Source of the DNA: a virus
DNA: 26,225 bases
IMG/VR virus record: IMGVR_UViG_3300000234_000024
Coordinates: 1-26,225 of that record
Reading direction: 5' to 3' (one strand)
Position numbers and translations under genes: made by a program. Shown here in pieces: positions 9,521 through 15,956 of this stretch. Positions within the stretch are counted from its first letter, which is position 1, and every line of letters starts with the position of its first letter. The notes under the pieces were generated by a model. It was not told the origin of the DNA, did not search any database, and was given only the letters and a program-made list of their open reading frames with translations.

Positions 9521-9673
9521 TTATCTCGTAAATCCCCATGTAACCGACGCGGTGATGGCGAATGCGGATAACCAATAAAACATGTCTCCATATTTGCCAT
9601 GAGATGCCCACCATATCGCATTTAACACATACAGAAACATGATGAAATAATTAAATAGTTTCGGATCAATCAT
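9521..9673 (-). CDS. Small two-TM membrane protein, holin candidate
   Basis: This 50-residue protein begins MIDPKLFNYFIMFLYVLNAI. Two hydrophobic segments (about residues 6-23 and 31-49: FYWLSAFAITASVTWGF) are joined by a short polar turn (SHGKYGD), and the end is FTR. Size, two TM segments and position directly after a cell-wall hydrolase gene fit a class II-type holin or pinholin. Its ATG at 9673 overlaps the hydrolase stop, with no separate Shine-Dalgarno sequence, indicating coupled translation. The holin role is inferred from context; it could also be another small membrane protein. Confidence 0.6.
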   Translation of the reverse strand: MIDPKLFNYFIMFLYVLNAIWWASHGKYGDMFYWLSAFAITASVTWGFTR

Positions 9674-10139
9674 TTTTATAAAACGTATGTGAGCCCACCG
9701 TGGCAGTTTTTCTCATTTTTGCCGCCCACCTTGGGCGAGCTATTTTATTATTATGAAATGATACACTGCTTCCAACTTCCCGAACGCGATATCCTTTAAC
9801 AGCAAGTTGAACAACTTGCTCAATATCATTTTTAGCTTCACGATTGACAATTTTCTTATTTTTACCTACCCATGAAAACTGACCGGACTCATTAACAACT
9901 TGACATACATTCATTTTTGTCTCTTTCGCGCGATTTAATGTCACTTGAGCTACAGCAATCTGTCCTTCAATTGGTTCACCTCTAGCCTCATGATATACGT
10001 TATTAACAAGACATGCACGGTCATTTGGATTAAGTGTAACTTCTGGTTGCGTTTTAGTTATTGTGGCGCTAAACGTCGCAGGGTGAACTAATATCGCTAC
10101 AATAACAAATATGACTTTAATTATTTTCAGATTCTGCAT
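9666..10139 (-). CDS. SleB-type cell-wall hydrolase, secreted (endolysin candidate)
   Basis: This 157-residue protein has a cleavable-looking signal peptide: MQNLKIIKVIFVIVAILVHP with a likely cut after TFSA near residue 25. The Hydrolase_2/SleB domain follows: CLVNNVYHEARGEPIEGQIA near residues 43-62, then VAQVTLNRAKE, VCQVVNESGQFSW and a C-terminal VSFHN region. The Glu in YHEARGE (residue 51) is the expected catalytic acid of this lysozyme-like fold. A signal peptide allows Sec export, so activity may be held back until the membrane is depolarised. The gene overlaps the ClpP-like gene upstream by 23 bp and the holin candidate downstream by 8 bp. Confidence 0.85.
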   Translation of the reverse strand: MQNLKIIKVIFVIVAILVHPATFSATITKTQPEVTLNPNDRACLVNNVYHEARGEPIEGQIAVAQVTLNRAKETKMNVCQVVNESGQFSWVGKNKKIVNREAKNDIEQVVQLAVKGYRVREVGSSVSFHNNKIARPRWAAKMRKTATVGSHTFYKND

Positions 10140-10704
10140 TTTTAGCTTCTAACCAAGTTACTAGACGAGCTTCGATATCTTTAGAGGTTAGCCAAATTTC
10201 TATACCGTTACGAACATTGTTAAGCTCATCTTCTGTCAAAAATCCAGTATATGTAGTCTTAAACATTTTATCCATAATATCAGATAAGAACTGAGATCTA
10301 ACCTTCACGTTCAATGCGTGACCAGCAGTTCCGAAATGTGATGGATGAATCATCATACTACCATCTTCATAAACCATAATTTCAGGGCAATTTAACGCGA
10401 TAAGCGAACATGCGGAATGACATGATCCTATGATATGAGCAATAACTCGCGCTTGCGAATTTTTGATGGCGGCGATAATAGAAATGGCGCTTTCAACTGA
10501 ACCGCCACCAGAATTAAAATAAAAGTGAAATGTATCATGTTCAGATGCCGAACTCAATGAGCTAATCAACCTTCGATATCGACTAGGCTGAATAATTTCT
10601 GAATCGAAATGAACGTCGTGTTCATATACTGTCATTTCTCGAGTAAGAATAAACTGAGTGTTGTCAAATGCAAACTCGTATTCTTCGTCTTCTGAATTCT
10701 TCAT
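10117..10704 (-). CDS. ClpP-like serine protease
   Basis: This 195-residue protein is the usual length of ClpP. It shows the oxyanion loop NSGGGSVESAIS (residues 64-75), the nucleophile region IIGSCHSACSLIAL with Ser at about 97, and MMIHPS with the catalytic His at about 120. The third residue (Asp) is not clear in FKTTYTGFLTEDEL, and the C-terminus is of the phage type (IEIWLTSKDIEARLVTWL). It could degrade proteins with a Clp ATPase of the host, or process phage proteins. AGGAG lies before the ATG. It is the first gene after the permuted tmRNA and its terminator, so a working link between tagging and proteolysis is attractive but unproven. Confidence 0.85.
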   Translation of the reverse strand: MKNSEDEEYEFAFDNTQFILTREMTVYEHDVHFDSEIIQPSRYRRLISSLSSASEHDTFHFYFNSGGGSVESAISIIAAIKNSQARVIAHIIGSCHSACSLIALNCPEIMVYEDGSMMIHPSHFGTAGHALNVKVRSQFLSDIMDKMFKTTYTGFLTEDELNNVRNGIEIWLTSKDIEARLVTWLEAKNAESENN

Positions 10705-10720
10705 TATATTTCTCCTAGTT

Positions 10721-10750
10721 AAAAAAATAAGGGGAAAAATTCCCCTTATT
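10721..10750 (-). terminator. Rho-independent terminator of the tmRNA gene
   Basis: On the minus strand an 11-bp stem (AATAAGGGGAA / TTCCCCTTATT) with a 3-nt loop is followed by a run of Ts (10725-10721). It lies between the tmRNA coding piece and the ClpP-like gene. The ClpP Shine-Dalgarno AGGAG follows about 7 nt later, so read-through or a separate promoter is needed for that gene. Confidence 0.92.
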
Positions 10751-10939
10751 AACTTTAGCGATTCGTTAGATTATACAGTGAATCAAACTGCATCTTGTGG
10801 CATTAAGCAGCAAGAGCAAAGATGTTATCGTTTGCATTTACAGTCGTTTGTTTCTGCGTTTAGGAAAACCTAAACTTACGGGTTTCACATTCCCGAGCGC
10901 CTATATTTCTATCTTCCCACGTCGAAACCTAGCAGCCCC
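10751..10939 (-). ncRNA. ssrA: tmRNA coding piece
   Basis: It begins with the acceptor strand GGGGCTG and a D-loop segment GGTTTCGACG like that of bacterial tmRNAs. Next come the P2 strand, a CGGG/CCCG hairpin and a 7-bp GTTTAGG/CCTAAAC hairpin (the PK1 region), the resume codon GCA at 10835 and the tag. After the tag stop there is a possible short stem (GATTC/GAATC) before the terminator. The mature 3' end is unknown. Confidence 0.88.
10803..10835 (-). CDS. ssrA: tmRNA proteolysis-tag reading frame, ANDNIFALAA
   Basis: From the resume codon GCA the frame reads ANDNIFALAA and ends in TAA. With the alanine carried by the charged tmRNA the tag is A-ANDNIFALAA. E. coli uses ANDENYALAA, so the ALAA end read by ClpX and most of the SspB-binding N-terminus are kept. 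There is no start codon, as expected for trans-translation. Confidence 0.92.
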   Translation of the reverse strand, partial: ANDNIFALAA

Positions 10940-10985
10940 ATCAAATAAACAGAATTCTGTAAAGGAACTCATCTATCTGTTTATT
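10940..10985 (-). other. tmRNA intervening segment, removed by processing
   Basis: Forty-six nucleotides separate the CCA end from the 5' end of the coding piece. AATAAACAGA (10985-10976) pairs with TCTGTTTATT (10953-10944), which stacks on the acceptor stem and brings both pieces together in the precursor. The loop contains the 12-bp palindrome ACAGAATTCTGT. This is the expected layout of a permuted tmRNA precursor. Confidence 0.82.
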
Positions 10986-11055
10986 TGGTGGAGCTGGGGA
11001 GCATCGAAGCTCCCGTCCGCAAAACATTCAAAATATAAGTTTACGCTGTTTTAGT
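10986..11055 (-). ncRNA. ssrA: tmRNA acceptor piece
   Basis: This piece carries the P2 strand (TATATTTT), GCGGAC, a T-arm at 11014-10997 and the acceptor strand CAGCTCC with an encoded ACCA end. The T-arm reads GGGAGC TTCGAT GCTCCC, that is a 6-bp stem with a 6-nt loop (or 5 bp and 8 nt), one nucleotide longer than the E. coli form. The 5' end, between the exonuclease stop and about 11055, is not fixed. Confidence 0.88.
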
Positions 11056-11058
11056 TAT

Positions 11059-11646
11059 TTAGTTGAGCGCTAAGAACTGCATTCTCATCGCATCGAGTGC
11101 TGCATCATGTAAAGGATCGTGCATGATAAATTCTTTAGGAGTCCCGCTCGGAAGTTCAAACTTACCAGTGTTCGATCCTAGGAGTACGTCAATAACAGTT
11201 CGAATATCCCTCGCTTTCCATAAATTGACAGGTAGTTTCATTTCCGCTTGTCTGTAGATGGATTCAAGAATTGGAACATCGAACGCAATTCCTCGACTCA
11301 TTACAAATGATTGTTTGAAATCATATTTTGATGATTTAACCCAATCATCAAATGCGCCTAAACCATCGACAATGGAAACATCATTTGCACTTGGAGTAAA
11401 TGAAATCGCTCGAGCTTCTTCCGATTGCATTTTCCACCAATTTAATGTCTCCGGGCTAATTGTCCGCGCGTAATTATGCCGCTGATCTTTTACTGAGAAT
11501 TTAACAAAAAATCCATCATCAACGATATCGACAAATTTACCATCATCTTCAAAAGCAAAAACTGTCGCGCCGAGGGATAAAACGTATGCAGTCGATACTA
11601 CATCCAATGTTTCCCAGTCAAAAATCAAGTGATGCCTGATTGACAT
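11059..11646 (-). CDS. DexA-like 3'-5' exonuclease (DEDD family)
   Basis: This 195-residue protein has the first exonuclease motif at HLIFDWETLDVVSTAYVLSL (Asp and Glu near residues 10-12). Next are a typical ISPETLNWWKMQSEEARAIS segment of the Rv2179c-like/DexA group near residues 63-82, FDDWVKS, SRGIAFDVPILESIYRQ, and a final HDPLHDAALDAMRMQFL with the His/Asp pair. The enzyme should remove nucleotides from 3' ends of DNA (or RNA); T4 DexA does this to single-stranded DNA. GGGAGG lies about 8 nt before the ATG. It overlaps the small gene upstream by 22 bp, and its stop is next to the tmRNA acceptor piece, so the tmRNA precursor may be cut from the same transcript. Confidence 0.82.
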   Translation of the reverse strand: MSIRHHLIFDWETLDVVSTAYVLSLGATVFAFEDDGKFVDIVDDGFFVKFSVKDQRHNYARTISPETLNWWKMQSEEARAISFTPSANDVSIVDGLGAFDDWVKSSKYDFKQSFVMSRGIAFDVPILESIYRQAEMKLPVNLWKARDIRTVIDVLLGSNTGKFELPSGTPKEFIMHDPLHDAALDAMRMQFLALN

Positions 11647-15704: not shown

Positions 15705-15956
15705 TTAAGAGATGTGCGCGCGATATTGTAGATCGAGCTCCATCCAAAATCCAGGAGGTCCCCCAAGAATTTTTTCCAATTGAGCGGCGATATCGTGAGT
15801 AATTTTCATTTTACCATCTAATAAGTCATTCACATCCTGCGCATTCATTTCCATCATAGTAACGAAATCATCAGCATCTAAGCCTTGTTCGTCAAGTAAA
15901 TCCATGATCGTTTCGCCCGGATGACTGACCCAATCTGGGTTGAAATCTTCATTCAT
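15705..15956 (-). CDS. Orphan HigA-like antitoxin (XRE-type helix-turn-helix)
   Basis: This 83-residue protein matches the HigA layout: PDWVSHPGETIMDLLDEQGL near residues 8-27, a helix-turn-helix (DDFVTMMEMNAQDVNDLLDG), KMKITHDIAAQLEKILGGPP, and FWMELDLQYRAH at the end. In HigBA modules the antitoxin represses the operon and blocks HigB, an mRNA interferase. No HigB-like gene lies on either side. A solo phage antitoxin could neutralise a host toxin or serve as a plain repressor. It has a weaker copy of the early cassette promoter and the leader GTGAGGATATAGAG. Confidence 0.82.
   Translation of the reverse strand: MNEDFNPDWVSHPGETIMDLLDEQGLDADDFVTMMEMNAQDVNDLLDGKMKITHDIAAQLEKILGGPPGFWMELDLQYRAHIS

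Follow-up and report, generated by a model that had tools for sequence, protein, structure and literature searches.

Two-piece tmRNAs account for 53 of 133 unique phage tmRNAs, and 50 of these 53 came from marine or aquatic samples (PMC9004378). One described carrier is the OM43 phage Melnitz, a T4-like aquatic phage whose circularly permuted ssrA gene immediately precedes the late-transcription coactivator gene (PMC9004378), the spot of many of the phage tmRNAs listed in our searches. Phage ClpP proteins have also been published (PMC5964084), and Pseudomonas phage pf16 has an SspB analogue (PMC5587285). Phage tmRNAs and ClpPs have so far been listed as separate curiosities. Here we describe a phage locus in which a predicted two-piece tmRNA gene directly precedes a ClpP-like gene, and examine how far this linkage recurs in other phages.

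A predicted two-piece tmRNA gene beside a ClpP-like gene

The DNA analysed (the window) is an entire virus record of 26,225 bases, a 26-kb fragment of a phage genome. It carries T4-superfamily genes (gp32, a gp59 relative, tail-tube gp19 and baseplate genes), and by gene content the phage is assigned to the T4 superfamily. The only tmRNA that ARAGORN called in the window spans 10712-11080 on the minus strand; it is flagged as permuted and has the tag ANDNIFALAA. The Rfam model RF04321 (tmRNA_permuted) matched at 10803-11048 with 102.6 bits (gathering score 47), and RF01850 (beta_tmRNA) matched at 10725-11122 with 88.5 bits (gathering score 84). Reading along the minus strand, an acceptor piece bearing CCA comes first, followed by the intervening segment and then by the coding piece, which holds GGGGCUG, GGUUUCGAC and the tag frame with its stop codon (Table 1). 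The acceptor stem pairs CAGCUCC with GGGGCUG, includes a G3-U70 wobble and is followed by ACCA. A G3-U70 pair in the acceptor stem is a requirement of alanyl-tRNA synthetase. The resume region, this alanine identity pair and the complete tag frame are all intact, the chance expectation for the permutation-specific motif in the window was 0, and the precursor fold was far more stable than shuffled sequences (z -5.8). We therefore annotate a circularly permuted, two-piece tmRNA gene, with processing and tagging activity predicted; by analogy, the intervening segment would be missing from the mature tmRNA. The two-piece nature adds to the original prediction, which had rightly described a tag ending in ALAA.

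Table 1 Predicted features around the tmRNA and ClpP-like genes of the window
Feature	Positions	Strand	Basis or remark
3'-5' exonuclease (PF16473, phrog_255)	11059..11646	-	Ends about 11 nt before tmRNA
Permuted (two-piece) tmRNA gene	about 10720..11048 (precursor extent approximate)	-	ARAGORN tmRNA*, Rfam, fold
Acceptor piece: T arm, acceptor-stem 3' half, CCA at 10988-10986	10986..11048 (5' end approximate)	-	Sequence
Intervening segment, 46 nt, hairpin AAUAAACAGA...UCUGUUUAUU	10940..10985	-	Sequence, fold
Coding piece: GGGGCUG (acceptor-stem 5' half) through tag stop codon	10803..10939	-	Rfam, sequence
Tag reading frame ANDNIFALAA + stop	10803..10835	-	ARAGORN, sequence
Intrinsic terminator at tmRNA gene end, 11-bp stem + T run	10721..10750	-	Sequence; stable in precursor fold
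Shine-Dalgarno AGGAG for ClpP-like gene	10712..10716	-	Sequence
ClpP-like serine protease, 195 aa, phrog_1827 type, Ser97-His120-Glu169	10117..10704	-	Pfam, PHROGs, alignment
Cell-wall hydrolase CWH (PF07486), apparent N-terminal signal peptide by eye	9666..10139	-	Pfam

The exonuclease, the permuted tmRNA, the ClpP-like protease and the cell-wall hydrolase (CWH) follow one another on the same strand, the last three within a few kb. That the ClpP-like gene comes directly after the tmRNA terminator, as had been claimed from the sequence, was borne out: the terminator (10750-10726) and AGGAG (10716-10712) lead straight to its ATG at 10704. Thus the adjacency underlying the proposed tmRNA-ClpP pair is real, but the neighbourhood is larger than a pair, taking in CWH and the exonuclease, and a terminator stands between the two genes. 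The gap from this terminator to the ClpP start is too short for a promoter, and CWH begins within the end of ClpP, the two sharing 23 nt. The T4-late promoter TATAAATA did not occur on the minus strand between 9 and 12 kb of the window, and its count over the whole window did not exceed chance level.

The window tmRNA is of betaproteobacterial type, and the host is therefore probably proteobacterial. Tag-based host searches of genome_contigs with the patterns ANDNIFALAA and ANDN(x)FALAA gave no match, and ANDNIFALAA gave none in viral_contigs. A blastn search of the window tmRNA against isolate phages returned a 37-base match in Pseudomonas phages and nothing else, and close relatives of the ClpP or of the upstream exonuclease were not found in viral_contigs. 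Elsewhere in the window we noted an 83-aa ORF whose product looks, by eye, like a helix-turn-helix antitoxin of the HigA type and has no Pfam match (15705-15956, minus strand), a cREC_REC domain protein (PF20274; 6521-6931, minus strand) and a SegE-type GIY-YIG endonuclease (PF19835; 4492-4935, plus strand).

The ClpP-like protein retains the catalytic serine and histidine

The window protein matched PF00574 (6e-11, 43 bits; cut-off 20.2), and its best family was phrog_1827, annotated as "ATP-dependent protease" in the category "other" (6.6e-48). Ser97 and His120 were invariant in 24 of 24 aligned ClpP proteins. At the acid position of the triad, where most aligned proteins have Asp and two have Asn or Gln, the window has Glu169, as do four relatives (P26059A, Murica, PaoP5 and DC31). 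The N-terminal PMV[IVL]E axial-loop stretch is missing from the ClpPs of the window, of the L042 species and of the clade described below, and is present in the host-like phage ClpPs L041, L047 and L128. The predicted ClpX-docking positions, which we take from E. coli ClpP and transfer by alignment only, are His60, Tyr62, His90, Ile92, Met110 and Tyr112; four of the six are hydrophobic and the rest polar. Protease activity is plausible since the catalytic Ser and His are retained. The phage protein may also pair with host ClpX on proteins carrying ANDNIFALAA; the tag end retained among phages speaks indirectly for this, the missing N-terminal stretch and the partly polar docking positions against it.

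Linkage of tmRNA, ClpP and CWH in other phages

A motif search recovered at least 119 viral loci with a permuted tmRNA. Their tags were diverse, and 69 of the 76 unique tags among the matches listed end in AA. Many listed loci have the tmRNA flanked on one side by a PD-(D/E)XK nuclease gene that lies behind PhoH and on the other by gp33-gp59-gp32; CWH is often the gene immediately downstream of the tmRNA. Five permuted tmRNAs (L041, L064, L014, L071 and L051) have very long predicted tags of 27-33 aa, e.g. ANTVVSFARKAKVLAFPAMRPVNAGTVGLAMAA.

We aligned ClpPs of permuted-tmRNA loci, led by L049, L005 and L090, and used the alignment to seed a scan, which yielded 80 ClpP loci that form one clade of T4-like phages. 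In 78 of them CWH lies just upstream, abutting or overlapping ClpP. This order differs from that of the window, where CWH is downstream of ClpP. The tmRNA count was restricted to the 46 clade loci whose upstream sequence extends for 3.5 kb or more. A permuted tmRNA was present upstream of ClpP within a few kb in 45 of these (43 by ARAGORN and two by Rfam), although the 46 loci collapse to 34 clusters at 90% identity and belong to a single clade, so that they are not independent. ARAGORN missed the permuted tmRNAs of L250 and L267, to which Rfam gives 103 bits, indicating that ARAGORN-only surveys undercount. Linkage also occurs in a further lineage: in the L042 species (four records) the tmRNA is directly followed by ClpP, and in L315, whose ClpP is 65% identical to that of L042, the tmRNA is upstream of ClpP with one reverse-strand ORF intervening. 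By reading of the ORFs, L042 is flanked by primase- and topoisomerase-like genes, unlike the window.

As a control we used 80 T4-like loci found via gp32 alone, of which the 26 with at least 6 kb of upstream sequence contained tmRNA in 11, CWH in 10 and ClpP in one. Counted by ARAGORN, tmRNA was more frequent in the clade than among these control loci (43/46 vs 11/26, Fisher p = 3e-6, with the shared descent of the clade loci as noted). None of the 80 gp32-anchored loci held tmRNA and ClpP together, and among 22 larger records of this set tmRNA occurred in 11, ClpP in one and both in no record. The absence of ClpP from the gp32-anchored loci and records with tmRNA indicates that tmRNA does not depend on ClpP. 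By comparison, tmRNA and CWH were associated in the gp32-anchored sample (10/16 vs 10/64, p = 4e-4; covered subset, p = 0.04), and CWH is a more general neighbour of tmRNA than ClpP is. A PF07486 hydrolase directly or closely downstream of a permuted tmRNA, with no ClpP, was seen in L080, L009, L057, L105, L208 and L171.

Among 12 isolate phages with ClpP, 10 lack a permuted tmRNA; the exceptions, BUCT-ZZ01 and Phosso, have it far from ClpP. In several phages with both genes the distance is 6-40 kb or more. Whole-record co-occurrence of tmRNA and ClpP was unconvincing when taken by lineage (by hand count, about 7 of 16 tmRNA lineages with records of at least 40 kb, vs 1 of 11 control records). 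When tmRNA-ClpP closeness was tested roughly by lineage, p values ran from 0.0001 to 0.01 depending on the lineages admitted, with short fragments favouring close pairs. The expectation that linkage would be conserved in related phages thus holds for the clade and for the L042/L315 lineage, but linkage is not general, as the gp32-anchored loci and the ClpP-bearing isolates demonstrate.

Origins of the linkage

A ClpP tree placed the window protein among sequences of the phrog_1827 type (those of P26059A and of T5-like and Barba phages) and the clade ClpPs, which are just 14-21% identical to it, on another branch (support 0.95-0.97). The tmRNA and CWH of the window likewise fell outside the corresponding clade groups, with weak supports. 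Since all three window components fall outside the clade, these trees suggest more than one origin of tmRNA-ClpP linkage, or a reshuffling through ClpP replacement. A shared cargo locus can also explain linkage across ClpP subfamilies.

Proposed mechanism and host partners

We tentatively favour, at a little under even confidence, an operon-like segment that combines working tmRNA rescue with a co-expressed cytosolic ClpP raising protein disposal. Following known tmRNA biology, the tmRNA transcript would be cut into two pieces and the tmRNA charged by host AlaRS, after which the phage tmRNA and host SmpB would rescue stalled ribosomes and append ANDNIFALAA. The clpP gene would be expressed from transcripts reading through the terminator, and so would be co-expressed with the tmRNA. 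Its product would act as a non-structural cytosolic protease, alone or mixed with host ClpP, and would most likely boost disposal of truncated or host proteins, tagged ones included, that are fed to it by host unfoldases. A direct functional tie between tmRNA and ClpP is plausible and is the weakest step of this proposal.

No SmpB was found in 20 large tmRNA phage records. G032 and the jumbo phage Phosso alone had a ClpX/ClpA-type C-terminal domain, and pf16 alone had SspB; neither occurred in the beta-type cassette records tested. Given that SmpB and the ClpX/ClpA-type domain were missing from these records, rescue and unfolding would need host parts. Host tmRNA is still abundant in T4-infected E. 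coli (PMC9697503). The SspB of pf16 (record L329, 5929-6261), a T4-like phage with ClpP and without tmRNA, was confirmed by PF04386.

Joint action of tmRNA and ClpP is favoured by the intact tmRNA hallmarks, the catalytic Ser and His, recurrence in lineages with different ClpP subfamilies, retention of a proteolysis-type tag end in phages, and a separate gp21 in larger relatives. Against it stand the tmRNA phages that lack ClpP, the distant gene pairs, the terminator between the genes, Glu in place of Asp, the missing PMV[IVL]E stretch and the partly polar docking positions; in addition, the window is only a 26-kb fragment whose ClpP has no closely similar counterpart in viral_contigs. The joint rescue-and-degradation interpretation of the original prediction is thus partly supported. 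We consider it unlikely that several T4-like lineages independently assembled their own two-piece tmRNA with a dedicated ClpP, drawn from different subfamilies, that degrades the tagged proteins; if they did, the phage would be partly independent of host quality control, and amino acids would be recycled during infection.

Alternative explanations

It is seriously possible, although we somewhat doubt it, that tmRNA, ClpP and CWH are independent accessory genes that gather at one site of variable content in T4-like genomes (PhoH - nuclease - insert - gp33 - gp59 - gp32) with no joint function. Many phages carry a tmRNA at this site without ClpP there; in P26059A, Barba, ICP1 and Murica, which have no permuted tmRNA, ClpP adjoins PhoH or lies close to it; BUCT-ZZ01 has ClpP beside or close to PhoH with its tmRNA about 40 kb away; and the broader association of tmRNA with CWH also fits. 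This explanation is countered by the window and L042, in which tmRNA and ClpP are adjacent despite flanks unlike the usual PhoH-gp33 locus, and by the 45/46 retention in one clade, which far exceeds the general tmRNA frequency, though that clade shares descent. We also observed phrog_1827-type and related ClpP genes that adjoin PhoH, a P-loop ATPase, or lie within a few genes of it in the unrelated phages L121, L229, L225, L226 and L317 (P26059A, Barba7A, ICP1, Murica and BUCT-ZZ01).

Improbably, ClpP could serve with CWH in lysis, perhaps through processing of a regulator of lysis, with the tmRNA as a bystander. The close CWH-ClpP junctions of the clade and the overlap in the window, in opposite gene order, would suit such a role, as would a T5-like phage in which the gene directly downstream of ClpP is annotated as a holin. 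However, the L042 lineage pairs tmRNA and ClpP without CWH nearby, the ClpPs of P26059A, ICP1 and Murica have no annotated lysis operon alongside, and by eye no signal or membrane segment was evident in the window ClpP ORF.

A decoy tmRNA that titrates host SmpB or blocks rescue is very unlikely here: the tmRNA of phage DS6A, reduced to its tRNA-like domain, is a reported inhibitor of tmRNA function (PMC11915505, PMC4131195), but in the window tmRNA the tag frame is complete and its degradation end canonical, the resume region and the alanine identity pair are kept, and degradation-like tags persist across phages. A head maturation role for the ClpP-like protein, as assumed for the P26059A ClpP (PMC5964084), is barely conceivable, for although head-maturation PHROGs also match significantly (phrog_1684, 2.4e-24), phrog_1827 far outscores them, no capsid genes lie near ClpP in the window, and T4-type gp21 is encoded separately in seven larger cassette relatives and in the L042 species, the window record itself being too short to show its own. 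Action on capsid proteins only, which would have spoken against the predicted rescue-and-degradation unit, is accordingly unlikely.

Comparison with known systems

Like Melnitz, the window phage is a T4-like aquatic phage with a circularly permuted tmRNA; the Melnitz ssrA is of alphaproteobacterial type and that of the window of beta type, and the Melnitz report mentions no ClpP (PMC9004378). In addition, the window tmRNA is located downstream of gp32 and not ahead of gp33, and ClpP and CWH follow it. The ClpPs of several lytic phages (T5-like, ICP1, rV5-like, Pakpunavirus, Barba and Curvibacter phage P26059A) belong to the same phrog_1827 family and share the conserved Ser and His, but those phages have no permuted tmRNA. 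With bacterial ClpXP/ClpAP and SsrA tagging the locus shares the ALAA tag end and, by sequence, the ClpP fold family; unlike bacterial ClpP, the window protein is without the canonical N-terminal motif, carries Glu in place of Asp and keeps four of six hydrophobic docking positions. Phage pf16, whose ClpP is related to that of L042 and also lies near primase and topoisomerase genes, carries genes that resemble or target parts of the SsrA-ClpXP pathway, but has no tmRNA (PMC5587285 and this analysis).

Neither a phage tmRNA-ClpP link nor a tmRNA-CWH-ClpP cassette was found in the papers searched, which cover the literature in part. If the cassette is recurrent, each function becomes testable through the other, and the phage would contribute to trans-translation at its tagging as well as its degrading end; dozens of contigs of the beta-type clade are available for testing this idea. 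Two-piece tmRNAs of aquatic phages and ClpPs of lytic phages are each known, while their recurrent linkage looks new.
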